DNA from: Chloroflexota bacterium
GTDB taxonomy: Bacteria > Chloroflexota > Dehalococcoidia > Dehalococcoidales > JACPPQ01
DNA: 33,783 nucleotides
Assembly: GCA_016190925.1 (NCBI GenBank)
Contig: JACPPQ010000005.1
Span: 1-33,783 of the forward strand
Direction: 5' to 3'
Shown here one piece after another: positions 5,489 through 28,236 of this stretch (positions are counted from its first letter, which is position 1; each line of letters starts with the position of its first letter). The notes beneath the pieces are model-generated. The model ran no database searches, was not told the DNA's origin, and saw only the letters and a list, made by a program, of their open reading frames with translations. Made by a program: the position numbers and the translations under genes.

Positions 5489-6697
5489 ATGAAAACACGG
5501 TTTTTTTACGGATACGTCATAGTTGCGCTTGCCACCTTCGTCATGTTCATAATGGCAGGGGGAATGTACAGCTACGGGGTCTTCTTCAAACCTCTGTCAG
5601 AAGAGTTCGGCTGGTCCAGGGCTATAACCGCAGGCGCCCATTCGATGTTCCTCCTCCTTATCGGTGTCTTTTTCATCCAGACAGGCAGGCTGGTGGACAG
5701 ATTCGGCCCGAGGCGCGTGGTAACGGTGTGCGCCGGTTTTTCAGGCCTGGCGTATTTGTTGATGTCCCGCATTAACGAATCTTGGCAACTCTATCTTTTC
5801 TGGGGACTGATAGCGGCTATCGGACAAAGCGGCGGTCTTATCCCGATGATGTCCACCATGACAAGATGGTTTGTGAAGAGAAGAGGGCTGATGACCGGCA
5901 TCGTTGCTTCCGGGGCCGGGTTGGGGAACATGGTTATGCCGCCGGTAGTCAGTAAACTCATCGAAATTTACGATTGGCGGACCACATATCTCATAATGGC
6001 AGTTGCCATCTGGGTACTGGTCATTGGAGCGGCACAGTTTCTGAAGCGCGACCCGGAGAAAGTAGGGCAGTTGCCCGATGGCGACACCACAAGAATAGAA
6101 GCGGTTGAGGCGCAGCAGGTTACAGGCTCTTCCCGCCGGGAAGCGCTCCACAGCGGCAGGTTCTGGATGCTGGTGGCGGCGATTTTCTGTTTCGGCTTCT
6201 TCATGCATTCCATTTTTGTGCACATCGTTCCCCATGCCAGGGATATGGGAGTCGAGCCTGTCGCCGCTGCCGGCGTCCTCGCCACTATCGGCGGGCTGAG
6301 CACCACCGGCAGAATCTTTATGGGCGGCGTCGGCGACAGGACTGGCAGCAAAAAAGCGATGGTGATTTGCTTCGCGCTGGCGCTGGTCTCCTTGCTCTGG
6401 CTGCAAATAGCCGCACAACTGTGGATGCTGTACCTGTTCGCGATTGCCTTCGGCTTTGCTACCGGAGGCATGGTCTCACTCGAGTCTGCCATCATCGCCG
6501 ACCTTTTTGGGCTGAAGGCGCATGGCGGAATCTTCGGGATGGTACACTTCGGTGTTACGGCGGGGGGTTCGCTGGGCACATTCCTGAGCGGAAGGTTGTA
6601 TGACCTCACCGGCGGCTATCAACTGATATTCTGGGTCTATGCCGCGCTCAGCTTTATCAGCCTTGTGCTGCTGCTGGCGCTGAAGCCACCCCGTTGA
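5489..6697 (+). CDS. MFS transporter, monocarboxylate / oxalate-formate antiporter-like
   Basis: A 402-residue integral membrane protein with about 12 hydrophobic segments split by a central loop (roughly residues 190-220). The N-terminus, YGYVIVALATF followed by YSYGVFFKPLSEEFGWSR, is the signature of the MFS group that includes oxalate/formate antiporters and monocarboxylate transporters. The loop between helices 2 and 3 (GRLVDRFGPRRV) is the MFS motif A, and GRIFMGGVGDRTGSKKAM is its second-half equivalent. The substrate is probably an organic acid (inference). It is a single-gene unit, divergent from the SDR, with its own extended -10 promoter. Confidence 0.9.
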   Translation: MKTRFFYGYVIVALATFVMFIMAGGMYSYGVFFKPLSEEFGWSRAITAGAHSMFLLLIGVFFIQTGRLVDRFGPRRVVTVCAGFSGLAYLLMSRINESWQLYLFWGLIAAIGQSGGLIPMMSTMTRWFVKRRGLMTGIVASGAGLGNMVMPPVVSKLIEIYDWRTTYLIMAVAIWVLVIGAAQFLKRDPEKVGQLPDGDTTRIEAVEAQQVTGSSRREALHSGRFWMLVAAIFCFGFFMHSIFVHIVPHARDMGVEPVAAAGVLATIGGLSTTGRIFMGGVGDRTGSKKAMVICFALALVSLLWLQIAAQLWMLYLFAIAFGFATGGMVSLESAIIADLFGLKAHGGIFGMVHFGVTAGGSLGTFLSGRLYDLTGGYQLIFWVYAALSFISLVLLLALKPPR

Positions 6698-6899
6698 AGC
6701 AAAACCAAAGTACCAGGCACCTGTCTCCGCCGAAGGCTACGACAGGCAAGCCAAATCCCTTTCGGCAGGCTCAGGGCAAGCCTAAATAATTTGTCATGCG
6801 CCTGAGGCGGACTCGCGAACGATGAAAATATTGCCCTGGCGTGTGGAAAGTCCCCATCCAAGCATAGTATTATAGTGCAGGATTCCTAAGTAAAACCCT
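6698..6899. repeat. Intergenic repeat debris between the MFS gene and tgt
   Basis: No gene is seen. 'tttcggcaggctcagggcaag' at 6760-6780 and 'cgcctgaggcgga' at 6801-6811 are words found again elsewhere in this window (8885-8935, 3451-3463). A TATTAT at 6868-6873 might be a -10 for tgt, but no matching -35 is seen. Confidence 0.4.
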
Positions 6900-6900
6900 A

Positions 6901-6918
6901 AAAGGAGATACGTTAATC
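6901..6918 (+). promoter_or_regulatory. Ribosome binding site deciding an ATC start for tgt
   Basis: AAAGGAGA at 6901-6908 is followed after seven bases by ATC at 6916, in frame with tgt. No ATG, GTG or TTG occurs in this frame between the stop near 6865 and the GTG at 7003, which is about 100 bases from the SD and inside the conserved protein. Confidence 0.65.
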
Positions 6919-8091
6919 ACCACTTCCCACACCCTCAACCTCATATCAACAGACACCAACACCGCAGCCCGCGCCGGAGAGCTAATTACGCAGCACGGGA
7001 AAGTGCCCACGCCGGTCTTTCTGCCTGTGGGCAGCCAGGCCACGGTCAAGACGCTCATTCCGCAGGAGCTTAAAGACATCGGTGTCAGGATGGTGCTGGC
7101 CAATGCCTATCATCTCTACCTCAGGCCCGGGGTCGAGGTGGTGGAGAAGCTCGGCGGGTTGCATAAGTTCATGGCCTGGGACGGGGCTATCCTTACCGAT
7201 AGCGGCGGCTTCCAGATTTTCAGCCTGGCGTCCCTGCGTCGCGTCACTGATGACGGTGTCCTGTTCCGCTCCCACATCGACGGCAGCGAGCACTTCATCA
7301 CCCCTGGGCTTGCCATCCAGTACCAGGAAGCCCTCGGCGCCGATGTGAGCATGGTGCTGGACGAGTGCGCTGCCCACGATGAGCCTTTCGATAAGGTCAA
7401 GGAAGCAATGGAAAGGACGCACCTCTGGGCTGAAAGGTGCCTTAAAGCTCACAAACACCCCGGCCAGTCCCTGTATGCCATCGTGCAGGGAGGCACATAT
7501 CCGGAGCTGCGCCGACAATCCGCCACATATCTGACTTCGCTGGGGTTCTCCGGCTATGCCATCGGCGGGTTGAGTGTCGGAGAGCCGAAGGAACTCACCT
7601 TTTCCATGCTTGAGCAGACTGTGCCGCTATTACCTCAGGATAAACCACGCTACCTCATGGGGGTAGGCTCTCCGGAGGACATAGTGGAGGGAGTGGCGAG
7701 GGGAATCGATATTTTCGATTGCGCCATGCCCACCCGTGTGGCGCGTAACGGCGCTCTTTATACCTGGGAGGGCAGGCGCAACATCCGCAATGCCGCCTAC
7801 AGCCGGATGGAAGCGCCGGTCATGACAGTGTGCGGTTGCTATACCTGCCGCACCTTCTCCGCGGCCTATCTGCACCACCTGTTCAAGAGCGAGGAGCTTC
7901 TGGCTTACCGCCTGGCAACCATCCACAACCTGAGCTTCATGAGCGAGCTGATGCGGCGTATAAGAGAATCCATCGTTAGTGGCACCTTCGAGGCCTTTAA
8001 GAATGAGTTTCTGGCAAGCTACACACCTACCGACGAGCAGGTGCGGCTGACCCAGAAGCAGAAGTGGCTGAAAGCACGGCGACAGGGTTGA
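6916..8091 (+). CDS. tgt: Queuine/preQ1 tRNA-guanine transglycosylase (Tgt), probable ATC start
   Basis: From the ATC at 6916 the product is 391 residues, a normal Tgt length. It exchanges guanine 34 for preQ1 in GUN-anticodon tRNAs. The active-site Asp is in LTDSGGFQ near residue 95. The nucleophile Asp lies in DIFDCAMPTRVARNGALYT near residue 270. The zinc site is CGCYTC followed by a His in the IHNL region. Starting at the GTG at 7003 would delete the first beta strand (residues before PTPVFLPVG), which homologues keep. This is the standard tRNA enzyme, not the DNA-modifying DpdA paralogue. It stands alone, with 6698-6899 repeats upstream. Confidence 0.93.
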   Translation: MTTSHTLNLISTDTNTAARAGELITQHGKVPTPVFLPVGSQATVKTLIPQELKDIGVRMVLANAYHLYLRPGVEVVEKLGGLHKFMAWDGAILTDSGGFQIFSLASLRRVTDDGVLFRSHIDGSEHFITPGLAIQYQEALGADVSMVLDECAAHDEPFDKVKEAMERTHLWAERCLKAHKHPGQSLYAIVQGGTYPELRRQSATYLTSLGFSGYAIGGLSVGEPKELTFSMLEQTVPLLPQDKPRYLMGVGSPEDIVEGVARGIDIFDCAMPTRVARNGALYTWEGRRNIRNAAYSRMEAPVMTVCGCYTCRTFSAAYLHHLFKSEELLAYRLATIHNLSFMSELMRRIRESIVSGTFEAFKNEFLASYTPTDEQVRLTQKQKWLKARRQG

Positions 8092-8415: not shown

Positions 8416-8814
8416 ATGGAGAAAAAAAGCCTGGAGTATTATCTGGGTCTTCCTTATACCATCACACTCAAGCGTGGTACCGGAGACGGTAAGGAATACT
8501 GGATGGCCAGGGTAGTGGAGTTACCTCATTGCATGACTCACGGTGCCACCCCTGGGGAAGCCCTCAGAGATATCGAGGATGCCAAGCGCGAATGGCTGAA
8601 ATCCAATCTCGACGCCGGCTTGACTATCCCTGAGCCTACCAGGTTCACCGGGCAATATCATCTCAGGATGCCGCCCTCACTTCATGAAGCACTGGCACTA
8701 AAGTCCGAGAGTGAGGATGTCAGCCTCAACCAGTTTATGATTACTGCCCTGGCACGGGCTGTCGGCTACGCAGAGCGGCCTGTAAAAAAGCGTAAAGCCG
8801 TCTCTAAAAAATAG
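8416..8814 (+). CDS. hicB: HicB-type antitoxin
   Basis: A 132-residue protein in two parts. The N-terminal HicB fold has YTITLKR, a YWMARVVELPHCMTHGATPGEAL core and a following amphipathic helix. The C-terminal part (from about residue 78: FTGQYHLRMPPSLHEALALKSE then SLNQFMITALARAV) is a ribbon-helix-helix DNA-binding domain. It would neutralise HicA and repress the pair's promoter. It starts 13 bases after the hicA-frame stop, behind GGAGGTGAAAC. With the toxin frameshifted, this may now be an orphan antitoxin. Confidence 0.85.
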   Translation: MEKKSLEYYLGLPYTITLKRGTGDGKEYWMARVVELPHCMTHGATPGEALRDIEDAKREWLKSNLDAGLTIPEPTRFTGQYHLRMPPSLHEALALKSESEDVSLNQFMITALARAVGYAERPVKKRKAVSKK

Positions 8815-10680: not shown

Positions 10681-10908
10681 TTACTGTTTATCATAGGACT
10701 TAATTTTGTTTCTTATCCACTCCCAGTCAGGGTCACCATGCTCAAAGAAGGACTTGAAATTATCCTTCAGCCACTCATAATAGTCGTCTTCCGTGTACTG
10801 GCAAAATGTTTCAACCAAGGTGCTTTTAGAAACATCCTCGGGTATCTCCAAATCTAAGTCACCAAACTCTTCATCCAGAAACTGTTCAACTACGGTTCTA
10901 TCAAGCAT
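10681..10908 (-). CDS. Small acidic hypothetical protein
   Basis: 75 residues from the ATG at 10908, which has GAGGAG six bases upstream. The product is strongly acidic and rich in aromatic residues (YTEDDYYEWLKDNF, HGDPDWEWIRNKI), with no motif I recognise. It starts 18 bases after the stop of the EVE-type nuclease gene and is the second gene of that unit. The small size, acidity and position would suit a partner or inhibitor of the nuclease, but this is inference. Confidence 0.6.
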   Translation of the reverse strand: MLDRTVVEQFLDEEFGDLDLEIPEDVSKSTLVETFCQYTEDDYYEWLKDNFKSFFEHGDPDWEWIRNKIKSYDKQ

Positions 10909-10926
10909 TTTCAACTCCTCGGATAT

Positions 10927-11904
10927 CTAGCTAAATACTACTTCTTGTAGAATGATGTCAGTTGCCTCAGTGTTGACTCTATATTTTAACAACCTTACAA
11001 CCTTCTCTTCTATTAACCTTCTTTTTTGCACATATTCAAGCACCTTATCTTGAAAGTCAAACCCAACCAATACACTTTGAACCATTTCGCCATCGCCGCC
11101 CGCAAGTTTTCTGACAAGCCAATTTTCATACTTGATAATTTGATTCAAATCCTCTTCAATGCAGGTTCCAGTTTTCAGTTCAATGCACGTGAATTTGTGG
11201 AGTATTTCAACGCCATCAACTGGTGTCACATGAGTAAGAAAAATATCCATTACCGTATTAAAAGACGTCGGTACGAAGTTTAAAAAATCATAATACTCTC
11301 CGATGAGGCTCTTTAACTTTGATTGAGCGAAAGAACGCATAAACCAAGCATTTAAATAGCCTTCTATTTTAATTCGGCCTTTCGCGTCAGTTTCAATTTT
11401 TAGTGGAAGAGGAACATTTGTGGCAGGGTATGGTTTTTGTATTAGCTTTATTGGATTGAAAACAGGATTGTTTCTGAGTAGTAGACGAATTAGCTCTTTT
11501 CCTTCTTCGGTGGTTATAGGTTGATGACTCTTTTTAGTAAAAGTCCCTAAATCGAATGTCCATATCTTACCTTTATCTCGCAAATCCAGGACATCGCTTA
11601 AGGCAATTGGCTTACGGAATTCCCTTATAGAAGGCTCAAACCTAACCCTGTAAGGATAAATCTGGTCTTTGCTTTCCCATAATTGGCGCTCATCAAAAAA
11701 TGGTCTACCCGTTGCCTTCCATAATCCATATATACCGTCATTCCTGACATAAAAGAACACAAAGTCGGACGATCTAATAGCTTCGAAACCTGCGATGATT
11801 TCTGAATTTGTACGCTCAAACGAATGAGCAATTCCGCCGTACAACCCGTGTTCAAGGCATCTCTTAAAGTTTTCTTTGCTTGCGAGGAATATATGGCTTC
11901 CCAT
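10927..11904 (-). CDS. Predicted EVE/PUA-like reader fused to a PD-(D/E)xK-like nuclease
   Basis: 325 residues. The N-terminal part (1 to about 110) reads like an EVE/PUA-fold module: HIFLASKENFKRCLE, then SDFVFFYVRNDGIYGLWKATG and YPYRVRFEP, the pattern of proteins that bind modified bases. The C-terminal part has EGYLNAWFM near 181-189, an Asp in TVMDIFLTHV (D220) and CIELKTG (E242, K244), an arrangement like the NucS/DUF91 PD-(D/E)xK core. I infer a modification-dependent (type IV-like) restriction nuclease. Domain calls are by eye. The gene is visibly AT-rich compared with tgt and aspS, a sign of horizontal transfer. The start ATG at 11904 has only a weak SD (AGGCAAGG), but a good promoter lies upstream. 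Confidence 0.65.
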   Translation of the reverse strand: MGSHIFLASKENFKRCLEHGLYGGIAHSFERTNSEIIAGFEAIRSSDFVFFYVRNDGIYGLWKATGRPFFDERQLWESKDQIYPYRVRFEPSIREFRKPIALSDVLDLRDKGKIWTFDLGTFTKKSHQPITTEEGKELIRLLLRNNPVFNPIKLIQKPYPATNVPLPLKIETDAKGRIKIEGYLNAWFMRSFAQSKLKSLIGEYYDFLNFVPTSFNTVMDIFLTHVTPVDGVEILHKFTCIELKTGTCIEEDLNQIIKYENWLVRKLAGGDGEMVQSVLVGFDFQDKVLEYVQKRRLIEEKVVRLLKYRVNTEATDIILQEVVFS

Positions 11905-11953
11905 AGTATACCTTGCCTCAAGCGCATTATTTTCGAGTTTTTTCCTTGCCGCA

Positions 11954-11984
11954 ATTATAGCATAGACTATAACCGTTAAATCAA
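11954..11984 (-). promoter_or_regulatory. Promoter of the EVE-nuclease operon
   Basis: On the minus strand TTGATT (11984-11979) and a perfect TATAAT (11959-11954) are 19 bases apart, with a TGn extended -10 (11962-11960). Transcription would begin near 11947, about 43 bases before the ATG at 11904. The promoter overlaps the end of a short upstream reading frame. Confidence 0.5.
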
Positions 11985-12110
11985 AGCCTTGCAGGTTAGG
12001 CCAATTCTAGCACTGTGACCATACTCACGCAAGAACATTCCCGTGTAAAAAATATTATCCTCTTCTTGCTTTAACTTCGCCCTCGTCCAATTCAGGAATG
12101 CCTGTCTCAT
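11976..12110 (-). CDS. Possible 44-aa remnant reading frame
   Basis: From the ATG at 12110 the minus strand reads 44 residues with protein-like composition (MRQAFLNWTRAKLKQEEDN, then FLREYGHSARIGL) to TAA at 11976. In-frame codons continue upstream for about 16 more residues (a QQCLKDNGSKVEK stretch) before a stop. The piece therefore looks like the C-terminal end of a larger, decayed protein. No family is recognised. It could also be chance. Confidence 0.3.
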   Translation of the reverse strand: MRQAFLNWTRAKLKQEEDNIFYTGMFLREYGHSARIGLTCKALI

Positions 12111-12400
12111 TTTTTCAACTTTACTTCCATTATCCTTTAAACATTGTTGAAAAACATTATTAACTTGTCACGCTCAACAAAAACCCAACTTAACAGACTT
12201 TGTTAAGTTCAAAATGCTCAAATTAGCCTCAACTTTACATAACTCTAACAACAAATATTCGTAGCTAATCAGCTTTGATTCGTTTCCCTGAAAATCAAGT
12301 TTTAGTCTTGCCCTTTGGTTCGATAGGTTCACCATGAGTGCTATGGTATACCCCCTCACTCCTTCGATAAACTCAGGACAGGTTTTATTCTCTCCTTCAG
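12111..12400. other. AT-rich spacer before aspS with a terminator-like hairpin
   Basis: No supported gene. AACTTAAC at 12187-12194 pairs with GTTAAGTT at 12202-12209 around a seven-base loop. On the minus strand it is followed by GGGTTTTTG, so it could be a minus-strand terminator. Near 12358-12380 lies 'ccttcgataaactcaggacagg', another copy of the dispersed repeat. A 61-codon minus-strand frame at 12174-12359 has no recognisable features. Confidence 0.3.
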
Positions 12401-17676: not shown

Positions 17677-20484
17677 CTAGCCGCCTAAGCCTAGCTGCCC
17701 AACAACGTTCCTTATGTATTTGACAGCATTTCTCAGATCGGTTTCTCCCCTCGCAGCCTTGTCATGACCACCGCTAGCTGTCCTGACAAGGATATCGCGT
17801 AACTCCTTACTAGACCCTGGGATTCTGCTTTCGATGATGTTGTCCACGCCACTTGACCACATGTACTCTGCGGTCTGATCCTGCCAGCTTCTCGGATCGA
17901 ATGTATCGGGTCCGAATTTTATTTGCGCCAAGAGATAGAGCCTTTCTAATGCCAGTCTGACCAATATCCAAGATGGCTCAAGGTGGCCTTCCTCTGCCTC
18001 TTTCTCAGCACGTCTTAAGCGTTCGGATATTCTCCTGTTGCCCTCTTCAACGCTACAGCCTTTCCTTTTATTGAGCACTACCCTCAAAGTGACATATTCA
18101 GACTCTGGACGGTCACGATGGTAATAGCTTACGTCCTTTGCGAACGTATCATTGTGGGTCAGGACAATGACCTGAAAACCCTCCGACAAAACATGGTTAA
18201 GGACGTCCTTTGCGAAGGTCTTGAAATGCTCTTCATCCATTGACTGGACTGGGTCGTCGAATATCAACATCCTATGACCCAACAATTTCGACCGAGTGAC
18301 GAACGCAGCGATACCCAGAGCATTCACCTGAGATTCGCTGAAGACGCGTAGGGCGTCGACCTCTTTTTTATTATCGCCGTCGTCCAACTGTGCCTTTACT
18401 TCTATCTCGACAGGGAAACCCTTCCCTCGAGGTTCAGGGATATGCAGTTGGCTAAAAGATGAATATTGGTCCGATCTCAACGCAGTCCATACCATCCCGA
18501 TCCCATCATTGAATGATACTCGTCTAGCTTCCAGAAAATGTTTCCGGTATGCTATCAGTGCCTCACGCATAGTTTCAAGGTCGCTCTGGGCTGATTTCTT
18601 GCTGTACTCCCAGTTCAAATCGTCCGCCAAGCCTGAGCAATTTTCTGAACACACCAACCATGTCTCACGCACGCGGTACTTGGGGTCTACCCTCGCCACC
18701 GCACTTGCAGCAGCTTCTACTTTGATCACAGCCTCCCTGTACTTGTGGAAAGTGGGAGAGACCTTATCCAACTCCTTTATGGCCTTATCATATTCTGTCA
18801 TGTACTCTTCACATTTAGTTGCGTCATCAGGCAACGGTTGCGGTGTCCTAGCGATACCCCGAACATACGTAAGATTTGCGCCGAACGTCGCACTCTCTTG
18901 ATTTCGGAGTTTGCGCAAATCAGCGACAGCTGATTTGAGGTCTTCCCCCGCGCCTTGCAGGGCATCCTGCCATTCCTTATCGGAAGGAACTCTTGGTAAG
19001 GACTCATCCCAGTCTTTTGTGATCTGTGCGGCAAGTTCAGCAAGCTTGTCAAATTTTTCTTGCAATGATCTCCTTGCCGACTTCTCCGCTTCCTGAATCG
19101 GCGCCCATCCTAAGATCTCTTTGACCCGCGCTACCGTCAGAGTATTTATGTCCTTGTATTCGCATACTGGACAAATCTGATCCTTCGCTCCGGTCTGGAC
19201 TAATCCATTCTCGCCCAGCTGACTTAGAATGTTTGAAATTACCATGTGTTCTTTGCCAACCGCAACGGCTGCCGCTTTAGCCGGGCCGTAAATTACCCAA
19301 GCTTCTCTAATCTCTTTGAAGACGCTATTGACCTGCAAGGAATGGTCGATGCCAGCTTGTGCCTCTAATACTCTGCGAGGCCGTAGTTTAGCGAGAAGCG
19401 GGAATGTCTTCTGTTTGGCCTTTTCCTGTTCTTGTTGGAAAACAACCCGAATGCCATCGAAATCTTGAATCTCCTTGGTCACCTCCGCAACTTCGAGTCG
19501 CGCAACCCTTGCTAGAACCTCCTTTGCCCTAGTGCCGAGATCTCCCTCCTTCTTTTGGTACAGTTGGGCGCAGGCCTTTTTAGATGAATCGGCCTCCAAT
19601 GTTCCCTCAAGAGCCGATAATTCCTTGAGAGCCTTGCTCCCGGAAGGGCTATCGAACTCCTTAATCCGAGCCGGACCTATCACCGCCTTTCCGATAAGGG
19701 AAGTTAACTCATCCAGTTTTAGCAGGCGCTCGAAGTACCCTCGCCGCTCGCGGGGATTGCTTTGCACAAAATCTCGCAGTGTGTGCTGCATTAACAATGG
19801 AGGCTCCGAAGCGAAGAGCTGGTCAAGCTCCTTGGACTCCTCTTCTTTACTAAGCTCCGTACCGTTCTTTAATAAGACGGAGTCGCATTTTGATTCGATA
19901 GTGGCACCGTAGTCTGACTTCAATACTCGGCGCAAACAAGACTGCTTTGTCTTTTCTTTACTACTTGACAAGAAAATAGCCTCAACCCAAGTCTGGTCAC
20001 CATCGGGGCGAAATTCGTTCGTAATACAATTTTCAAGTTCCCTCGCGCTGCCCAAATCATGGCATTCCCGGCGAGAAAGCCGACCCGTGAACAGCCACTC
20101 CAAAGCCTCAGCTAAGCTGGTTTTCCCAGAGCTATTTCGGCCTTCGAATACGACCAGATTCGCATCGACATTGATGGGCTCTGGAATATCTCTGAAGCCT
20201 CTGAAATAGTGGGGTTCTATTGATTTCAAACGTACTGATTCTCCCAAAGTCCCTTCAACAATGTCGGGGAACTCTTTGTGAACCACGATCTTGTCATCAG
20301 GTCCGATCGTATGACCGCAATACTTGGTTGCACGCTCAACAAACCAAGAGTCGATCCAGGAATCATCCTCGGAACGGCTTCCAGGGTAGGCTGATGCAAA
20401 GCCGCCTAAGGCGCCAGGAACATTTGCCAGGATAGATAGAACTTCATCCCCAGTGGGATGGACATTCTCGGCTTTCGAGTCCAT
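17677..20484 (-). CDS. SMC/Rad50-like AAA ATPase with CxxC hook (defence operon gene 11)
   Basis: 935 residues. An N-terminal extension of about 85 residues precedes an ABC-type head: FRGF then GRNSSGKTS (Walker A, 115-123). A long coiled-coil-like charged region has one CPVC (438-441) that could form a zinc hook by dimerising. The second head half has FSESQ (715-719, signature-like), MLIFDDPVQSMDEEH (Walker B and D-loop, 739-752) and VIVLTHND. About 155 further residues form an unassigned C-terminal domain. It resembles RecF/SMC-type ATPases of defence islands that act on DNA ends. It starts at ATG 20484 behind AAAGGAGG and lies 32 bases after the DndB-like gene, last in the operon. Its exact role is unknown. 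Confidence 0.85.
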   Translation of the reverse strand: MDSKAENVHPTGDEVLSILANVPGALGGFASAYPGSRSEDDSWIDSWFVERATKYCGHTIGPDDKIVVHKEFPDIVEGTLGESVRLKSIEPHYFRGFRDIPEPINVDANLVVFEGRNSSGKTSLAEALEWLFTGRLSRRECHDLGSARELENCITNEFRPDGDQTWVEAIFLSSSKEKTKQSCLRRVLKSDYGATIESKCDSVLLKNGTELSKEEESKELDQLFASEPPLLMQHTLRDFVQSNPRERRGYFERLLKLDELTSLIGKAVIGPARIKEFDSPSGSKALKELSALEGTLEADSSKKACAQLYQKKEGDLGTRAKEVLARVARLEVAEVTKEIQDFDGIRVVFQQEQEKAKQKTFPLLAKLRPRRVLEAQAGIDHSLQVNSVFKEIREAWVIYGPAKAAAVAVGKEHMVISNILSQLGENGLVQTGAKDQICPVCEYKDINTLTVARVKEILGWAPIQEAEKSARRSLQEKFDKLAELAAQITKDWDESLPRVPSDKEWQDALQGAGEDLKSAVADLRKLRNQESATFGANLTYVRGIARTPQPLPDDATKCEEYMTEYDKAIKELDKVSPTFHKYREAVIKVEAAASAVARVDPKYRVRETWLVCSENCSGLADDLNWEYSKKSAQSDLETMREALIAYRKHFLEARRVSFNDGIGMVWTALRSDQYSSFSQLHIPEPRGKGFPVEIEVKAQLDDGDNKKEVDALRVFSESQVNALGIAAFVTRSKLLGHRMLIFDDPVQSMDEEHFKTFAKDVLNHVLSEGFQVIVLTHNDTFAKDVSYYHRDRPESEYVTLRVVLNKRKGCSVEEGNRRISERLRRAEKEAEEGHLEPSWILVRLALERLYLLAQIKFGPDTFDPRSWQDQTAEYMWSSGVDNIIESRIPGSSKELRDILVRTASGGHDKAARGETDLRNAVKYIRNVVGQLGLGG

Positions 20485-20516
20485 TGGGCGCCTCCTTTTG
20501 CCAGGCTGCGGGAACC

Positions 20517-21782
20517 TTATGTGATTCTCTTCGGTAGATCCACTTCGGCAATAGTGCGGTTGAGAGCGCTTGCATATCGTTCCTTTAGCACCACAACACT
20601 AGTCCTGAGCCTAGCCAAATCAATTCCCAGCATGTATAGCAACAACAAGGTTGCTGTCCGCTGATTTTCTTTTCGCGTGATCATGACGTTTGCAGTTGGC
20701 TCCCATAGGACTCCGACCCAAGGTTCTGAGGCAAGGTCAATGGGAAGCCGGGCGAATTTCGGTATCCAAGTCGACAACGTCCCCTCGAGTTGAGTCGCCA
20801 TTCGTACAGCCCTAACAAAGGACAAAAGCCCAATGGTTCGAAATAACAAGTGACCCCCACCTTTATGCCTGTACTTCCCGGCGATCAAATCCTCGCTTAC
20901 GCTGTCTTGCACTTCTGCTAAAGGCGGAAAATTCTTCACTATCAAATTCCAGAACTCGGTAGCCTTTCCATATAGACCTGCCAATCGAACATCAGTCGGC
21001 CTGAATCGTTTGAAATCCTTCCATTTACGGCCGCGATCCGTGGCTAGAATAATGTCGTTGGCCTCATAGAGTGTAGTGATATTTGTAAAACACTTTTTAT
21101 CGGTAACCGGAATAGCTTTACCCTTCGACACGGAAATTCGGAACTCCTTGAATAAAGGGTACTCCTCCATCAATCTTCTTGTGACTATCGCGACAGCATC
21201 GTCCTCATCGAGGGCTATGATGTCCATCATGTCAACGGGTTTTGCATATCGGTTGAGTGTAGAGAATAGCCTTCTGGTCCGTTCAAGGCCAGCCTCTTGC
21301 CTCACGTCAGCCGCCAAGAAAATAGTGCAGACTTCCTCATCCGCGAGTCCAGGAACCGGCTCACCAGTCAGCGCATCCTTTATGCCCGCAACCCGATGTT
21401 GTCCATCTATAGCAAAAAGCTTCTCGCTACCAGCTAGTTTAAGCATCCCCAAGACTCCTTCCTGATAACTGGGAAGGTTTGATGGATCGAATTGATCTGA
21501 TTTTCCAACTGAGAGTTCATACCATTCAGGAGACCCACCATAGACACCAATAATTAGGGCATTGAAGAATCTCTGCGACTGTGTGCGTAGGTAGGTGGAA
21601 ATCTCTTTGGACCTATTTGTGACACGTCGTTGAATCAGCTCTCTCAGTCCCGTGTTCTTGTGAATTTCTTCAGCTAGGCTCACTCTATCAGCTACGTCTT
21701 TCATTCTAAGAAAACTTATGTAGTATACGTTATCCCCCATCGTAGCTCTGAGGGCTGGAACAAGCATTTCTGTAGCTGTCAT
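20517..21782 (-). CDS. DndB-like DGQHR-domain protein (defence operon gene 10)
   Basis: 421 residues. The family hallmark DGQHR is at 126-130 (LFAIDGQHRVAGI), followed by a ParB/Srx-like region with RLFSTLNRYAKPVD near 180 and a helical C-terminal half. DGQHR proteins include DndB, the DNA-binding regulator of phosphorothioation operons, and DpdB of the 7-deazaguanine system. DndB is thought to tune the modification system and bind its own promoter. Here it sits next to the DndD-like and PP-loop genes, so DndB-like is the better reading. Its ATG overlaps the GIY-YIG stop (ATGA), showing translational coupling. Confidence 0.85.
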   Translation of the reverse strand: MTATEMLVPALRATMGDNVYYISFLRMKDVADRVSLAEEIHKNTGLRELIQRRVTNRSKEISTYLRTQSQRFFNALIIGVYGGSPEWYELSVGKSDQFDPSNLPSYQEGVLGMLKLAGSEKLFAIDGQHRVAGIKDALTGEPVPGLADEEVCTIFLAADVRQEAGLERTRRLFSTLNRYAKPVDMMDIIALDEDDAVAIVTRRLMEEYPLFKEFRISVSKGKAIPVTDKKCFTNITTLYEANDIILATDRGRKWKDFKRFRPTDVRLAGLYGKATEFWNLIVKNFPPLAEVQDSVSEDLIAGKYRHKGGGHLLFRTIGLLSFVRAVRMATQLEGTLSTWIPKFARLPIDLASEPWVGVLWEPTANVMITRKENQRTATLLLLYMLGIDLARLRTSVVVLKERYASALNRTIAEVDLPKRIT

Positions 21783-22267
21783 CGAAGCGCCTCCACTATT
21801 GTCCGCACCCTAGCCGGCAATTGGTCATTACACGGTGGCACAAAGGCCGTGATTAATGCTTCTTCAATCTGAGTCAGTTGAGAAGGGTCGGTAACCACGA
21901 CGTAGCAGAAAGCGAGATTATTCGGGTATTTGTTCAGGAGTCGAACAACCCTTGGTCGACCAATCTCTCGGTTTTTCTCAGAAAGATAATCTTGAAAACG
22001 GCCACGAAGCGTGCCAGCAGTCTTTCCCACGTACATCAAATATGATGAGGAAGGATGATTAGCCAAAGAAGGTTGGACCACGAACGAATATATTCCAGGT
22101 GCTGCCGGAACGTTACCAACTTCACATGAAGCGAATTGGCAGGAGTGCCAGTCGAAAGGCCAATTGTGGTTTTCGGAATATTCCTTCCAAAGTCTTGGCC
22201 AGAGAAAGAAGGTGTGCTTGTGAGCACTCGCCTCGTCTTCTTGAGCTAAAATGTCTTGTACGGGCAA
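21779..22267 (-). CDS. GIY-YIG family nuclease (defence operon gene 9)
   Basis: 162 residues with a complete GIY-YIG set: PGIYSF (58-60), YVGKT (79-83), the catalytic Arg in LRGRF (about 90), the metal-binding Glu in IEEALI (135-136) and Asn in CNDQ (147). A short N-terminal piece (1-50, HTFFLWPRLWKEY) precedes the domain and may contact DNA or a partner. It would nick or cut DNA, so it is a candidate effector. GIY-YIG nucleases occur in restriction enzymes and homing endonucleases, but are not a usual part of Dnd or Pbe systems. It overlaps the DndB-like gene by four bases. Confidence 0.85.
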   Translation of the reverse strand: MPVQDILAQEDEASAHKHTFFLWPRLWKEYSENHNWPFDWHSCQFASCEVGNVPAAPGIYSFVVQPSLANHPSSSYLMYVGKTAGTLRGRFQDYLSEKNREIGRPRVVRLLNKYPNNLAFCYVVVTDPSQLTQIEEALITAFVPPCNDQLPARVRTIVEALR

Positions 22268-22288
22268 TGTCCTCTCCGTTTTCGTTGA

Positions 22289-22744
22289 CTAGTTAGGTTC
22301 CGGAAGTAAACCGATAATAGAATCAGTTAAGTTCCATATTGGTTTTGCAGTGCCATCATTTAACATTTCTACTACCTCTGGCAATCCAACTGCAGCCAGA
22401 TTGTTTGCCAAGTCAATGATTCCTGCTGGATTTTCTAGTATCCAGGGATTGGTGCTATCAGCTATGGCAAGAAGTTCCAGGAGCTCGATTCTGTACGGAT
22501 CTCGTGATAGAATTTCTCCAGTTATGAAGCGATGGGAGTTCTTGACCTTTGGCCCTTTACCCCTACGTGCTCCAACACACACAGCAAAAAACCAGATATC
22601 GATGTAACGGTCGAATGGACTATCGTCTGGCGATGGCTTTGCTCCTCCACTAGGCTGAGTTTGACAGAAGCGTTCTACTTCAGGACGCAACGTCTCCGGA
22701 ATCTCAAGGTCCAAATTCTGAAATGGATTAGTTATATATGACAT
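22289..22744 (-). CDS. Dnd-associated accessory-like protein (defence operon gene 8)
   Basis: 151 residues, mostly helical. The central pattern DRYIDIWFFAVCVGARRGKGPKV and the following LLELLAIADS and LANNLAAVGL recall the small family called 'dnd system-associated protein 4', which has an analogous 'FAAALGYKKGRR' helix. The match is from memory and weak. No catalytic motif is seen. It is not obviously DndE, whose conserved features I do not find. It lies 23 bases after the DndD-like gene and 22 bases before the GIY-YIG gene. Confidence 0.55.
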   Translation of the reverse strand: MSYITNPFQNLDLEIPETLRPEVERFCQTQPSGGAKPSPDDSPFDRYIDIWFFAVCVGARRGKGPKVKNSHRFITGEILSRDPYRIELLELLAIADSTNPWILENPAGIIDLANNLAAVGLPEVVEMLNDGTAKPIWNLTDSIIGLLPEPN

Positions 22745-22766
22745 ATAATACCCTCCGCGTAAAGAA

Positions 22767-24905
22767 CTAATTGCGCTGCGTCAGCCGGGCATTCTTTCCA
22801 TCTCCAATCCGCTCGCAAACATCACAATATTGACGATGGTTACAATCGCAAAGAAGAGCTTGCATATTCGCCGTGGATGTATTGTTGACTAGTTGTTTTG
22901 GATAATGAGCTGAGTTACTGAGGGTGAAAACCTTGCCAGCATAGAGGTCGATGATGTCTTCACATCCCGAAATTTCATCCCGGGTTAGAAATAGAATAAG
23001 TTGAGCAGTGTGGCTGACTGCCGTTCGAAGTACCGACTGTTTCACGATTCCGCTCATCATGCCCAATGGAGTATCAATGATATTGGGTGCCTTAACTCCG
23101 CTTACTTCTGTTAGAGCTAAGATGAAAGCCAGGGTCAACGCTCTACGGGAAGCTCCATTAAGGTCTAGGTCGGTATCTAGAAGTCTATCTTGTGGACCGT
23201 ACACCACAATGTCATAAGCCTCTGAAATATCAGCTTTCCGAATTATGGAATTCTCAGGGTCCGCTTGAATCATGCTCAAGAAATAATCATTCATGGCGTT
23301 ACAAACCCGCGGTACCTCGCTATCTTCAATCGATTTGTAGGAGGCCGCCAAAACATCAGCAATGTCAGTAGCTGCATCAAGTCGGCAGGCTACTTTTTTG
23401 AACCGTTTTTGTTGAGTCGTGAGAACTTTCCATTCTTCATTGGCGTTCTTTTTTTCTCGGATGAGTCTTTCTCTATCTGACAGTCGTATACCATGTTCGC
23501 GGGTCAATTCCTCTTTGTGCTCTAGCCGGGCTCTTTTCTGTTCCCTTAAGAAGCCAATGTCAGTTTCGGGGAGTTCATTGATCTTTGACTCAATCGTTTT
23601 CAATTCGCTTTCTAGATCAGCGATTTGTTTGTCAAAGTCGTTTCTCCGCTGAATTATCGCATTTGCTAGATTCCCCCAATCTCCACTCGGAGTGCTCACT
23701 TGCAATAACTTCTGATTTGCAATAAGCCTGAGGTCGGTGAGTCTGTCGTCGACCACAGAAGCCGCCTCTTGCTGAACAATTAGATCCTGAACATGTTGGT
23801 AATGTACGCTCCCGGGTTCTAATACCTCTCCACATATACATTCCCGCATTTCCAACCTTTCACGAAGAACGGGTATTGCTGTCCTCGGAATTCGGCCTTT
23901 TGCCTTGAGGTCGTTCAATATCTTACTAGCTTTGGCAATGTGATCCTTTAGAAGGAACTGTCCCAAAGGTTCAACTTTGAATAATTCGCCGTGTTCCCGG
24001 CGAAGCGCTTCAAGTCGAGTTCTTGCCGATGATAGCTGACTCTGTTTGAGCTGTTTTTGTTTGACTAACTCCTCTCGATTGCCTCTTTCAAGAGCCCGCT
24101 CTAATTTCTGCTCAATCATCTGAACATCTACGTTAACCTGCTTCAGTTCTCCATCGATCTCGGATAACCTCTTGTTGTTTTCAGCTTCTTTTTCTTCGAG
24201 CCTCCGCATCTTTTCTTGAAGTGCGTTCAGTTCGTCGGCGCCGGAGAACTGCTTCACCTCGCCGCGGATTTCTACCGCGCTTTTCTTAACGTGACTCAGA
24301 GCGTTTTCAAGAAGTTCAAAGCCAAGCATATCTCTTATCGCTTTTCGAACCATTTTCCTTTTTTCCCCTGTCGGGACCTCAGAAGTTATGAAGCTCAATG
24401 CGCGGTCACCATCAGTAAAAAATAGGTCTTTCAGATTACTCCCCATGATCTGCCTAACGAAAAGTTCACCAGACTTTTCAGGGGTGTATCCGCTCTGGTC
24501 CTTCTTGAATAGTTGGAACGAGTCCTCGTTCCTTTTCCAAGAAGATGGGCCTCGAATCATCTCGGTCGCAGTTCTTCGCACCAAGTACTCGTCCGTAGAT
24601 TGAATCCAACCGCCCTTTCCGTCAGGTCTCTCAAATGTATGTTCAAATTCCAATTCGCCAACTATTTCTGCGGCTTTCGATGCAGATGTGTCCCAGTCGA
24701 TAGGAATTATCCTATAGCTGGCTCCACGCGTTGGCAGCCCCTCTTCACCGAATAGAGTCCATTGGAGGGCATTCAAGATAGTGGTCTTGCCGGTTTCGTT
24801 CTCAGCTCGAATGACAGTCAATGGACTCTTGCTATCAGTCGAAAATTCCAATTCCAAATCCCGTAACAGACGAAAGTTAGTAAAACTTGCTCTTCGAAAT
24901 CTCAT
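22767..24905 (-). CDS. DndD-like SMC-type ATPase (defence operon gene 7)
   Basis: 712 residues. Walker A is AENETGKTT (34-42), the coiled coil spans about 220-500 and a CICG half-hook is at 356-359. The signature-like LNGASRRAL is at 582-590 and Walker B is APNIIDTPLGMMSG (606-619). The 'IDTPLG' wording and the CICG hook are characteristic of DndD, the ATPase that partners DndC in phosphorothioation. An extra C-terminal Cys/His cluster (CDCNH at 686-690, C694 and C697 in YCDVC) could bind zinc; I do not know it from DndD. The start at ATG 24905 has GGAGG upstream. Confidence 0.88.
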   Translation of the reverse strand: MRFRRASFTNFRLLRDLELEFSTDSKSPLTVIRAENETGKTTILNALQWTLFGEEGLPTRGASYRIIPIDWDTSASKAAEIVGELEFEHTFERPDGKGGWIQSTDEYLVRRTATEMIRGPSSWKRNEDSFQLFKKDQSGYTPEKSGELFVRQIMGSNLKDLFFTDGDRALSFITSEVPTGEKRKMVRKAIRDMLGFELLENALSHVKKSAVEIRGEVKQFSGADELNALQEKMRRLEEKEAENNKRLSEIDGELKQVNVDVQMIEQKLERALERGNREELVKQKQLKQSQLSSARTRLEALRREHGELFKVEPLGQFLLKDHIAKASKILNDLKAKGRIPRTAIPVLRERLEMRECICGEVLEPGSVHYQHVQDLIVQQEAASVVDDRLTDLRLIANQKLLQVSTPSGDWGNLANAIIQRRNDFDKQIADLESELKTIESKINELPETDIGFLREQKRARLEHKEELTREHGIRLSDRERLIREKKNANEEWKVLTTQQKRFKKVACRLDAATDIADVLAASYKSIEDSEVPRVCNAMNDYFLSMIQADPENSIIRKADISEAYDIVVYGPQDRLLDTDLDLNGASRRALTLAFILALTEVSGVKAPNIIDTPLGMMSGIVKQSVLRTAVSHTAQLILFLTRDEISGCEDIIDLYAGKVFTLSNSAHYPKQLVNNTSTANMQALLCDCNHRQYCDVCERIGDGKNARLTQRN

Positions 24906-24948
24906 CTTCTCAACCTCCGAGTGCTTATCCTTGGAAGGTACTTACCCT

Positions 24949-25179
24949 CTAGCTCTCAATACCCTTGCCACCTTCTGTACTTCGGTAAACGAAGTCACCT
25001 AGAGCCTCACAATGGTCAGTTACTGTTTTCTGGATCGTAGTAGCTCTAATCGCATGCTGATGCTCTGCCCAGACAATATCACTAATGGCGTCGAGGAGAG
25101 CCTCGTGATAGTCAGGAACCCTCTCGGGTGCTTCCTGGCATTTCTTCTCGATGGTACTGATAAGCTTTTTCGGATTCAT
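24949..25179 (-). CDS. Small 76-aa helical protein (defence operon gene 6)
   Basis: 76 residues starting at ATG 25179 behind AGGAGGG. It is predicted to be all-helical and slightly acidic, with one helix carrying a conserved-looking DIVWAEHQHAIRATTIQKTV stretch. No motif is recognised. It lies between the helicase and DndD-like genes with 30- and 43-base gaps, so it is part of the operon and may be a structural partner of the DndD-like ATPase. DndE (about 110 aa) occupies the equivalent position in Dnd operons, but I see no sequence match. Confidence 0.7.
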   Translation of the reverse strand: MNPKKLISTIEKKCQEAPERVPDYHEALLDAISDIVWAEHQHAIRATTIQKTVTDHCEALGDFVYRSTEGGKGIES

Positions 25180-25209
25180 TATGCAATCCCTCCTACCGAT
25201 GCTTTGGCA

Positions 25210-27375
25210 TCAGAAATATCTCTCGATCAGAGGCCTAACTGCCAATAATGCTCCATCAGGCGCTGCCGCGTTGCTGGAGAGGCTGGCAAATTCCGTTATC
25301 CGTTCCAATTCGCTTTTCAGAATTTTTGACATGCCTGAATCCGAGAAGGTTTCTTCGTTCATCGGAGGTATTACTAAGAAGTCGTGGATAAAGGCAATCT
25401 GCTTGTTGGTTCTCGGACATTTGCGTAGAACTCTTCCCCTTCGTTGAATCCATTGTCTTTCGACTGTCGTGCTAGCCAAAATGAAGGCTGTGGATATTTC
25501 AGGGATATCGATACCCTCGTCCAAAACTCGCATGGCTGTCAATACTTGTATATCGCCATCGGCAAAACTGGCTATCAGACTCTGCGCTAATTCCGTCTTG
25601 GAGGTCTCTTCTTGTGTGATTTGGTGTATCCGAAGCCTGATATCATCCATGAGCATCCGATTCACTTCAATCAGTTGTTCTCTGCCTTTATCACTTGCAT
25701 ATACCAGAGTGTGTTTGATCCTTTTCGAATCTCGGCTCTCCAGGATTTCACGTAGAACACCAATCTTGTTCTCCGCTTGTTCAAGAACGCGCCGCCTCCG
25801 AATTAGCAATTTTTGTAGCGCCAGAGGAATATCACCGTTCTTCCCATCTCCGCTTTCGCCTAAGGTCCACCCCATGTTTTTCAACCGATCAGTTAGTTCT
25901 ATCCATTGCTGGAGCTCATCTGAAGTTAGCTCGGTGGGGTGTACATAATAGTTATAAGGAACAAGGCATTTACCGATTGCTTCCTTAAGGGTAAACCGGA
26001 ACACAACGTCTCCGAAGAATATTTTCAGCTGTTCAGTCCCTTCTTCGTCATATTGTCTTATTGGCGTTGCCGACAAACCCATCCTGTAATCGAAACGAGT
26101 TGGTGGATTACCAAGAAAACGCGGGGTACCCAAGTCGTGCACTTCATCCGCGATGAGCATGGAGACACCTGAGAAACGACTCAGTTCGTCCTGAAATCTT
26201 GCGTCGCATAAGAAATCGTGAGTTACCACAAGACATTCTACCTTAGAAAGACCCAACCTGAGATTCCTCACCGTTCGTCTCACGGAAGCCAACTTCTCTG
26301 CCTTCCCAGCCTGGTCTCCCGGTAATATGGCATTCAGCCCGAACTTTCTTGCTTCTTTAGCCCATTGAGAAACTAGTGGCAGGTACGGGGCTGCAATCAC
26401 TAGTAATAAGGGGCTAGCCGGGTCAAACAGCTTCCTAGCCGCAATTAGGGATGTCACCGTCTTACCAGACCCGGTGGCCATCTCAAGAATTCCTTTATGT
26501 CCAGCCTGTTCCCAAGCGATGACTGCTTGGCCTTGATGTGCAAAATCACCTTTTTCGTATATCAGACCCTGCGGAATCTCAAAGCCCCTGCTATTGGTCG
26601 GACTGCCGGCAACTATGACCTCAGACGAACCGACTAAACCATGAGAATGATCAACTGACCAGGCTTGTGCAAAGTCTTCAACATTTGGTATACGCTGAGG
26701 CAAGAAATCTTGAACGATTCGTCTCTTGAAAGCTTCGGGAGGATCATAGGTTCGCATGAAGCTGGGCTTCCTGTTATGCCAGGTGGCTTCGAATTCGTCC
26801 CGCAGACGTTGAACAACTTTCTGTTCCTCTCCGCTTAACCATGACCGGGAGACACTTACTTGCTCAACGTTGGTGATAAAACCACTGCGTGTGAGGTTGT
26901 TGGACCCATGTACAGCAATCCAGGTGTTTCCATCTGAAAAAAGGCGAATCTTAGGGTGAAATAAGCCATTCTTGACCAAGACCAGCTTAATTGACATTCG
27001 TCCCGCAGAGATCAGGTAAGCGAGACATTCGAGAGTATGCTTGACCAACGCACTTTCGCTGACCTCATGACTACCGTACAAGTCCTCGAGTCGCCTGGCT
27101 AGAAGTTCGGCGGGCGTCTCAGAACCATCTCTAATTGCGGTTTGGTCTTCTATGGACAGATATGGACTGGATAGAAGTCTCATCTTTCCTTCAGGGTGTA
27201 ATATGAATTCGGCTAATCCGGGAGCCATTTCCCTCAAGGCTGAACTATGAAAGAACCCGGTCATGCAATCATAGGTGTTTGACGTTCGCAAACACGGAAT
27301 GATGACTTCGCCCAATAGATTGTCTTCAGGCAATATGTACAACGGGGCAAAGTCCGGAAGTGTCTCAAAGCTCAT
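25210..27375 (-). CDS. PLD-domain SF2 helicase, Dnd restriction-type (defence operon gene 5)
   Basis: 721 residues. The N-terminal third has a phospholipase-D-like half site, LFHPKIRLF (HxK at 140-142) and GSNNLTRSGF (157-166). The SF2 helicase follows: ATGSGKT (300-306), DEVH (410-413), MGLSATP (432-438), and in the C-terminal half WIQRRGRVLRKC. This architecture matches the family 'DNA phosphorothioation system restriction enzyme' found beside dnd genes. It is the most likely restriction effector here, either cutting or unwinding unmodified DNA. The PLD nuclease has only one HxK, so it may need to dimerise. The stop is 30 bases ahead of the 76-aa gene. Confidence 0.88.
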   Translation of the reverse strand: MSFETLPDFAPLYILPEDNLLGEVIIPCLRTSNTYDCMTGFFHSSALREMAPGLAEFILHPEGKMRLLSSPYLSIEDQTAIRDGSETPAELLARRLEDLYGSHEVSESALVKHTLECLAYLISAGRMSIKLVLVKNGLFHPKIRLFSDGNTWIAVHGSNNLTRSGFITNVEQVSVSRSWLSGEEQKVVQRLRDEFEATWHNRKPSFMRTYDPPEAFKRRIVQDFLPQRIPNVEDFAQAWSVDHSHGLVGSSEVIVAGSPTNSRGFEIPQGLIYEKGDFAHQGQAVIAWEQAGHKGILEMATGSGKTVTSLIAARKLFDPASPLLLVIAAPYLPLVSQWAKEARKFGLNAILPGDQAGKAEKLASVRRTVRNLRLGLSKVECLVVTHDFLCDARFQDELSRFSGVSMLIADEVHDLGTPRFLGNPPTRFDYRMGLSATPIRQYDEEGTEQLKIFFGDVVFRFTLKEAIGKCLVPYNYYVHPTELTSDELQQWIELTDRLKNMGWTLGESGDGKNGDIPLALQKLLIRRRRVLEQAENKIGVLREILESRDSKRIKHTLVYASDKGREQLIEVNRMLMDDIRLRIHQITQEETSKTELAQSLIASFADGDIQVLTAMRVLDEGIDIPEISTAFILASTTVERQWIQRRGRVLRKCPRTNKQIAFIHDFLVIPPMNEETFSDSGMSKILKSELERITEFASLSSNAAAPDGALLAVRPLIERYF

Positions 27376-27422
27376 TTACTTACGCTCCTGGGCGTGTTTA
27401 ATGAGTTAACCACTTTCTCCTC

Positions 27423-28217
27423 CTAAAGTGTACAAATCAAGCATGGTTGTGGGTATGTATCATCTTCGAAGATGTCTACCAATCGTCCTCCGTTTGCCTT
27501 ATCTGTGCCTACTCTCTTTTCGTGTTCAGCCTTGATCGCGGCTATCCTCTCGGGACGGGCCAGTTCTTCCAAGCTCTCCCGATCTGACCAGGTAAAACGC
27601 TTCCCAGACGTTTCATCGACCTTCTCATATTTGGTTGCTAATTCATATAACTTAGGATGCCTTTCGAGTAATCCGACCCACTCTATCTTTTGCTGGAAAA
27701 AACAGAAATAGCATCCCGACCTGGAACGCCAACTCCGATATGAAGGTTCACCGATTCCGGACTCCTGTAATATCCGCCTTACGTCTGAATAGCAGATACC
27801 ATCTTCCTTAAAGGGAAACACAGGTTTTATGTTTGGTTTTGTTGATACGTATCCTTCTCTGTCTTCGTCAGCGCGAATACCAACGTAGTTGACTACTGCG
27901 GAGTCCCCAACGTAGAATTCAAACGGCCGCAACTTAAGATGCTTCGTGCACCAGCGCATCCTTGCAGACGGCAGGTATCCCCTGTAAACGCTAAGCCAGT
28001 GGTCAAAGCCGCGGCCGTCATGTTTCAAAACCATTATTCGTTTGCCGAGCACAGCCTCTAAACGGCCTAAGTAATCATAAGTCTCTGGCAATTCTTTCTC
28101 AGTATCGCAAAAGACATACTCGAGGTCAGGAACCTTGTTACGCATGTAGATTGCCAATGCAGCGCTGTCCTTGCCCCCGGAAACGGAGAGAATATGACGT
28201 GTTCGCATGTTGGGCAT
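27423..28217 (-). CDS. PAPS-reductase/DndC-like PP-loop Fe-S protein (defence operon gene 4)
   Basis: 264 residues. The ATP-pyrophosphatase PP-loop SGGKDS is at 13-18. Cys residues at 90 (WCTKHLK), 169 and 172 (GCYFC) and 259 and 262 (CLIC) suggest a 4Fe-4S cluster plus one more Cys. This is the core of DndC/SspD-type enzymes that use ATP to activate DNA and transfer sulfur to the backbone; DndC proper is much longer (about 500 aa). BrxP of type 4 BREX also belongs to this family. It starts at ATG 28217 behind AAGGAGGTGG. Its catalytic residues look intact, so it is probably the modification enzyme of this operon. Confidence 0.85.
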   Translation of the reverse strand: MPNMRTRHILSVSGGKDSAALAIYMRNKVPDLEYVFCDTEKELPETYDYLGRLEAVLGKRIMVLKHDGRGFDHWLSVYRGYLPSARMRWCTKHLKLRPFEFYVGDSAVVNYVGIRADEDREGYVSTKPNIKPVFPFKEDGICYSDVRRILQESGIGEPSYRSWRSRSGCYFCFFQQKIEWVGLLERHPKLYELATKYEKVDETSGKRFTWSDRESLEELARPERIAAIKAEHEKRVGTDKANGGRLVDIFEDDTYPQPCLICTL

Positions 28218-28236
28218 ACCTCCACCTCCTTTTCGA

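Follow-up and report, generated by a model that had tools for sequence, protein, structure and literature searches.

The window, by which we mean the whole 33,783-nt stretch of DNA that was analysed, carries two closely spaced genes on the reverse strand, one for a nuclease and, 3' of it, one for a small acidic protein that is referred to here as the companion. The following features were assigned to these genes.

10681..10908, minus strand: companion, a 75-aa acidic three-helix protein of an unnamed family, with its ATG at 10908
10915..10920, minus strand: ribosome-binding-site-like GAGGAG before the companion ATG, within the 18-nt gap between the genes, read from the sequence
10927..11904, minus strand: EVE-PD-(D/E)xK nuclease ORF, 325 aa from its ATG, a probable modification-dependent restriction enzyme
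10969..11400, minus strand: PD-(D/E)xK nuclease domain with a NucS/EndoMS-like fold, residues 169 to 312, from VIA-align comparison with EndoMS and invariant residues
11476..11904, minus strand: EVE/PUA-like domain, residues 1 to 143, from VIA-align comparison with PH1033 and Pfam EVE
11954..11962, minus strand: extended -10 element TGCTATAAT, candidate promoter for the two-gene operon

The original prediction had described the nuclease as an N-terminal EVE/PUA module followed by a C-terminal NucS-like PD-(D/E)xK core, to be checked by structure prediction and comparison with EVE and NucS domains. Residues 42 to 139 matched Pfam EVE with an E value of 2.1e-4 and 21.8 bits, just missing the gathering score of 23, and a 19-row profile of the nuclease detected the EVE protein PH1033 at an E value of 3.7e-12. 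An AlphaFold2 model was obtained with a pLDDT of 90.9 and a pTM of 0.90, and VIA-align matched its residues 1 to 143 to PH1033 with a Z score of 16.0 (1.8 Å over 127 residues), so that the Pfam, profile and model results strongly supported the EVE module. NucS was detected only weakly by the same profile (E value of 0.14), and residues 169 to 318 of the model aligned with EndoMS at a Z score of 12.9 and with NucS at 12.6. Residues E181, D220, E242, K244, Q255 and Y259 were invariant in the 19 alignment rows, and D220, E242 and K244 occupied exactly the positions first given for them. The structure comparison and the invariant residues strongly supported the C-terminal assignment, and a PD-(D/E)xK core was present in the model.

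In domain architecture and proposed role the focal nuclease is like the EVE-PD(D/E)XK proteins, which have been described as putative type IV restriction endonucleases (Bell, Wolf and Koonin 2020, PMC7641849); as this class is already published, the nuclease joins a known class. The portion of that account available to us does not mention a small 3' companion, whereas the focal nuclease has one. The new element here is the association of the companion, the nuclease architecture having been published previously. The model also aligned, with a Z score of 13.8, with VcaM4I, described as an EVE-HNH modification-dependent endonuclease (PMC7897488), whose EVE reader, likewise N-terminal, has the same fold but whose catalytic domain is HNH in place of PD-(D/E)xK. 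Residues Y22 and Y83/Y85 of the nuclease are aromatics near the positions that line the VcaM4I pocket, as placed by the PH1033 sequence alignment alone. The likeness to the NucS/EndoMS mismatch endonucleases lies in the C-terminal fold, but the NucS N-terminal domain was absent from residues 1 to 143 in the Pfam and VIA-align comparisons, an EVE domain replacing it, and no sign of mismatch repair was seen. These comparisons indicated a probable defence enzyme in which the EVE half would flip out and read a base, presumably a modified one, and the NucS-like half would cut the DNA. Cleavage of DNA carrying modified bases, as was first proposed, would agree with the published class and with the finding that no methyltransferase lies beside the nuclease within the window.

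Of the 400 genomes sampled from the phylum, 9 contained a relative of the nuclease, its own genome being one of these and one match covering the EVE stretch only. The closest relative (G154) was 61% identical, and no companion match was present anywhere in that genome. A companion was encoded 3' of the nuclease in seven relatives of the focal branch (L052, L076, L091, L096, L098, L099 and L197). No labelled methyltransferase was found among the listed neighbours at L052, L096, L098 and L099, where unlabelled genes were scanned in part; a methyltransferase-tail remnant was present at L091, and at L076 a DCD-only gene (6541-6978) stands beside the EVE nuclease. The nuclease gave no pattern match in viral contigs and no phage match, and the only plasmid-borne example was a distant relative in Halobaculum. 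A related EVE-PD-(D/E)xK branch (L036, L054, L013, L015 and L016) had an N6/N4-type methyltransferase close by in all five loci. This arrangement is unexpected of a type IV enzyme and suggests a restriction-modification system with an EVE-bearing nuclease. In eight loci the EVE domain was fused to another, distinct kind of PD-(D/E)xK-like domain, in which an E-x-Q motif was identified by eye, and the companion again stood behind it (L042, L049, L094 and others; L031:8248-9129). At L064 a DCD (EVE-like) domain was fused to an N6/N4 methyltransferase (1144-2325).

The original prediction had also regarded the gene as acquired, and this was borne out by the GC contents of the nuclease and companion genes (0.385 and 0.399), the flanking genes being at 0.479 and 0.575. 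Within the window the operon is flanked by a Pif1-like helicase gene and by a gene which we take to be aspS; the latter was present in 59 of 61 relatives. Immediately before the helicase gene stands an ORF (8416-8814) that by eye we presume to encode a HicB-like antitoxin. The extended -10 element TGCTATAAT was one of four found in the window, compared with 0.65 expected, and a generic sigma-70 promoter scan listed no promoter at 11954-11962 on the minus strand. For two short ORF remnants that precede the nuclease gene (11979-12110 and 12177-12359), no convincing counterpart was seen among the loci compared. In 29 relatives' loci no pif1 or EVE match was detected beside the gene, and these loci were uninformative about an empty pif1-aspS site because their flanks were short. 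The proposal of two accessory sites about 6 kb apart held, since a defence island (17677-32653) with Ssp/Pbe/Dnd-like genes begins 5.7 kb from the operon. PADLOC analysis of this island identified a phosphorothioation-type set comprising SspB, SspC, SspD, PbeA, a PbeC/DndD-like protein, a DndB-like protein and an LmuB-like ATPase.

The small acidic gene noted behind the nuclease proved to be a real ORF: it starts 18 nt past the nuclease stop with a GAGGAG ahead of its ATG, and its product has 21 D/E and 8 K/R residues and a pI of 4.1. The companion is presumably co-expressed with the nuclease. The predicted structure (pLDDT of 95.4) consists of helices at residues 5 to 18, 29 to 55 and 63 to 74; the conserved positions are mostly aromatic or hydrophobic and the net charge is moderate. 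The gene family is under purifying selection, with a median omega of 0.18 for 48 pairs with dS below 1.2. Scans of 65 members against Pfam and NCBIfam yielded no family at an accepted score and no helix-turn-helix family, the domain that a controller (C) protein of a type II restriction-modification system would carry, PADLOC listed no family for the window copy, a PDB sequence search gave one chance-level match only, and fold searches were weak, pointing to no clear structural relative. The companion showed no domain typical of toxins, sensors or phages, it had no match on phages, plasmids or viral contigs, and no published work on the family was found in the literature searched. DUF5986, which matched 20 of the 65 members weakly (best E value of 0.0085; the one match scored against the cut-off reached 13.4 bits versus 25), was rejected, and resemblance to the histone fold (VIA Z of 5.0 or less; Foldseek E value of 1.9 at best) was in the range ordinary for helical arrangements. 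At L044:3120-3720 a second copy stands in tandem with the companion (E value of 2.7e-12); it is more divergent and bears an acidic extension at its N terminus.

A single-sequence search detected strong relatives of the companion in 5 of 400 genomes of the phylum, its own included, the other four being 64 to 72% identical, and a profile search detected relatives in 25 of the 393 genomes examined from the class. Scanning a single genome from each species produced 213 matches to the pattern, and at 76 of these loci tblastn confirmed that a companion relative is encoded. Going by record titles, the hosts were bacteria of many phyla and archaea (among them Chloroflexota, WOR-3/Stahlbacteria, Aerophobetes, Planctomycetes, Deltaproteobacteria, Omnitrophota, Thermodesulfovibrionia, Nitrospinota, Zixibacteria, Atribacterota, Cloacimonadota, Melioribacter, Hydrothermus, Methanoperedens, Methanolliviera, Methanophagales and Altiarchaeota), although host names may be wrong because most loci came from metagenome-assembled genomes.

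An open frame through the match was present in 72 of the 76 loci (L095, L105, L106 and L108 were excluded), and 67 of these were informative, the other five (L093, L102, L103, L104 and L107) lying at contig ends with no upstream gene. In 55 of the 67, a restriction or defence gene was found on the same strand within three genes upstream of the companion. The nearest same-strand gene in these 55 loci was separated from the companion by a median of 15 nt, the gap being 50 nt or less in 47 loci and the genes overlapping in 12. With labels derived from clustering and Pfam analysis of representatives, 19 of the 55 had an N6/N4 methyltransferase, accompanied by an HNH gene in 12, BsaWI in 3 and an EVE nuclease in 2; the remainder comprised EVE-ExK nucleases without a methyltransferase (12), EVE-ExQ nucleases (8), GmrSD/HNH (5), GHKL ATPases, for which a defence role was assumed (5), other HNH genes (3), and one case each of TdeIII, REase-ARP and AbiE. 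Among the 12 loci without such a gene, L045 and L071 had nothing but another small gene, no nuclease was recognised at L055, L067 and L100, L081 and L090 had decayed companion copies, and in L038 and L064 an EVE nuclease or DCD-methyltransferase lay downstream on the opposite strand. 

Pfam assignments for the nearest same-strand upstream gene (n = 66) were EVE (14), N6_N4_Mtase (10), HNH (10), HATPase (4) and TdeIII, AbiEii, GmrSD and REase-ARP (one each), so that 42 of 66 belonged to a restriction or defence family, the families being summed without overlap. As a control, the gene upstream of polX was examined in 22 partner-less loci, a set matched to one site and to the window's class only; two restriction-enzyme families, eight SecA proteins and several toxin-antitoxin-like proteins were found, and the difference was significant (Fisher P = 1.2e-5). 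Two intact loci found later agreed, the companion following a methyltransferase-HNH pair in L196 and an EVE nuclease of the focal type in L197, and decayed companion copies were detected at secA-polX in three more loci.

Exchange of cargo next to the companion was apparent at several sites. In 17 loci polX lay within three genes downstream of the companion, and the cargo at these loci was of six kinds or more. In 9 of 30 polX loci secA stood 16 to 135 nt before polX, which represents an empty site, and L140 was the sole companion-bearing locus of the 30. Across the class this interval (L136-L165) serves generally as an accessory site, since MvaI/BcnI, DpnII/MboI, HEPN and ParE-like genes occupy it without a companion. 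Nearly related companions had different cargo in L037/L050 (dS of 0.42) and L034/L039 (dS of 0.46), and L058/L066 differed from L061 in cargo, with methyltransferase-gene fragments of the same two kinds on either side in each case. Variously cut methyltransferase fragments directly follow the companion in L053, L058, L061, L066, L079, L084, L088, L091 and L103, and a second methyltransferase is represented by a fragment ahead of the cassette in three of these loci (L058, L061 and L066).

A companion tree was built from 75 columns, with many forks unresolved, and the number of label changes was compared with shuffled labels. The EVE-ExK label required 12 changes (shuffled mean of 12.8) and the methyltransferase-HNH label 11 (shuffled, 11.2), so neither of the two largest cassette classes was grouped more than expected by chance; the host label required 20 (shuffled, 26.6). 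All cassette labels together clustered weakly (39 changes versus a shuffled mean of 44.1, with 0 of 200 shuffles as low), as they did inside Chloroflexota (23 versus 26.4; 6 of 300 shuffles). On these sequences, host accounts for the grouping of the tree better than the type of cassette does. For the N-terminal half of the companion, identity was 0.556 for pairs with the same cassette but different hosts, 0.569 when both differed and 0.606 for the same host but different cassettes, pairs not being independent; recombination within the companion gene was rejected, as this identity did not track the cassette.

Overall, the locus is on balance best explained as a horizontally acquired two-gene restriction operon with a 3' companion that is indifferent to the type of system. 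The first gene would supply the EVE reader and the NucS-like cutting domain, and the second encodes a small acidic three-helix protein whose gene was observed to come last, on the 3' side, in many unrelated restriction operons. The original prediction was that this protein restrains the nuclease. The tight pairing stood, whereas restraint specific to this nuclease did not, and a general restraint is possible. A dedicated inhibitor, or antitoxin, of the EVE nuclease would be consistent with the tight operon, with an acidic companion (pI of 4.1) beside a basic nuclease (pI of 8.2) and with the seven focal-branch relatives of like arrangement. However, highly conserved companions trail HNH, BsaWI, TdeIII, GmrSD, REase-ARP, AbiE and GHKL genes, so that neighbourhood analysis revealed many unrelated upstream families and not a specific pairing with one toxin family; the companion tree was not grouped by nuclease type; and the genome with the 61% identical nuclease lacked any companion match. 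The varied upstream families and the tree ruled out a private antitoxin as the main reading, and we consider it very improbable. Because many unrelated DNA-cutting defence genes precede its relatives, the companion would be a general helper rather than a private antidote.

Among general roles, a brake on self-restriction is tentatively put forward as the likeliest mechanism. Such a brake would act on something common to all of the systems, whether DNA, expression of the operon or a host protease or repair factor. It would explain the tight coupling to these enzymes, since self-damage is their common trait, and may account for a locus that tolerates swaps of very different restriction cassettes. 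Persistence of the companion alone in several loci, L055, L067 and L100 for example, is harder to reconcile with a brake and speaks rather for a potentiator or an anchor, and a pure brake does not simply explain this persistence together with the decay of the companion in other loci. A potentiator, i.e., a sensor, anti-anti-restriction factor or abortive-infection effector serving any restriction system, would agree with the system-agnostic association, with persistence where no nuclease was recognised, with purifying selection and with the AbiE and GHKL modules that the companion adjoins, but the companion showed neither a toxin, sensor or phage-related domain nor a match in viral contigs, plasmids or phages, and we regard this role as rather unlikely. 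The remaining explanation is that the gene is a hitchhiker or recombination anchor, with an unrelated role or serving merely as homology, and that cassettes are swapped just 5' of it. A constant companion with varying cargo at one site (secA-polX in Dehalococcoidia and the 3' flank shared by L050/L068), the methyltransferase-fragment flanks of L058/L066 versus L061 and the existence of empty secA-polX sites are in keeping with this explanation. Against it, the companion is spread over many phyla at sites that are unrelated to one another, and it almost always closes a cassette on the 3' side; nucleotide identity between phyla is low (median of 0.65); the N-terminal half does not follow the cassette; and overlapping starts suggest co-expression. 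An anchor appears less likely still than a potentiator. Returning to the brake, a broader and slightly more doubtful proposal is that the companion represents a previously undescribed family of universal restriction companions, co-translated with any upstream DNA-cutting system and buffering its self-damage, so that unrelated types of cassette could be swapped at a single locus in both bacteria and archaea.

Other accessory proteins of defence systems are comparable in part. BrxR/CapW WYL proteins are regulators common to many defence systems, and like the companion they represent one accessory family on many unrelated systems; they are 5'-placed winged-helix/WYL proteins, whereas the companion, an acidic protein of 75 aa with three helices, lies 3' and has no recognised domain. 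Ocr and ArdA are antirestriction DNA mimics, and the companion is likewise small, acidic and possibly active against many enzymes. It differs in its moderate charge and in its largely aromatic or hydrophobic conserved positions, and no match to Ocr or ArdA was seen in sequence or fold searches, though a relation in fold is conceivable.

These observations touch on how a cell survives a newly arrived restriction enzyme and on what makes defence genes gather at a small number of exchange sites. As the companion stands beside type II, type IV, GmrSD, AbiE and GHKL modules, it offers a single gene with which to ask whether such a protein tames these systems, helps them or marks their site, and it could serve as a new marker for finding restriction systems. 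A second small gene of about 80 aa, falling into two sequence clusters, also recurs near the companion, either ahead of the cassette or directly before the companion (L040, L043, L045, L048, L065, L071, L073, L074, L092, L099 and L101).
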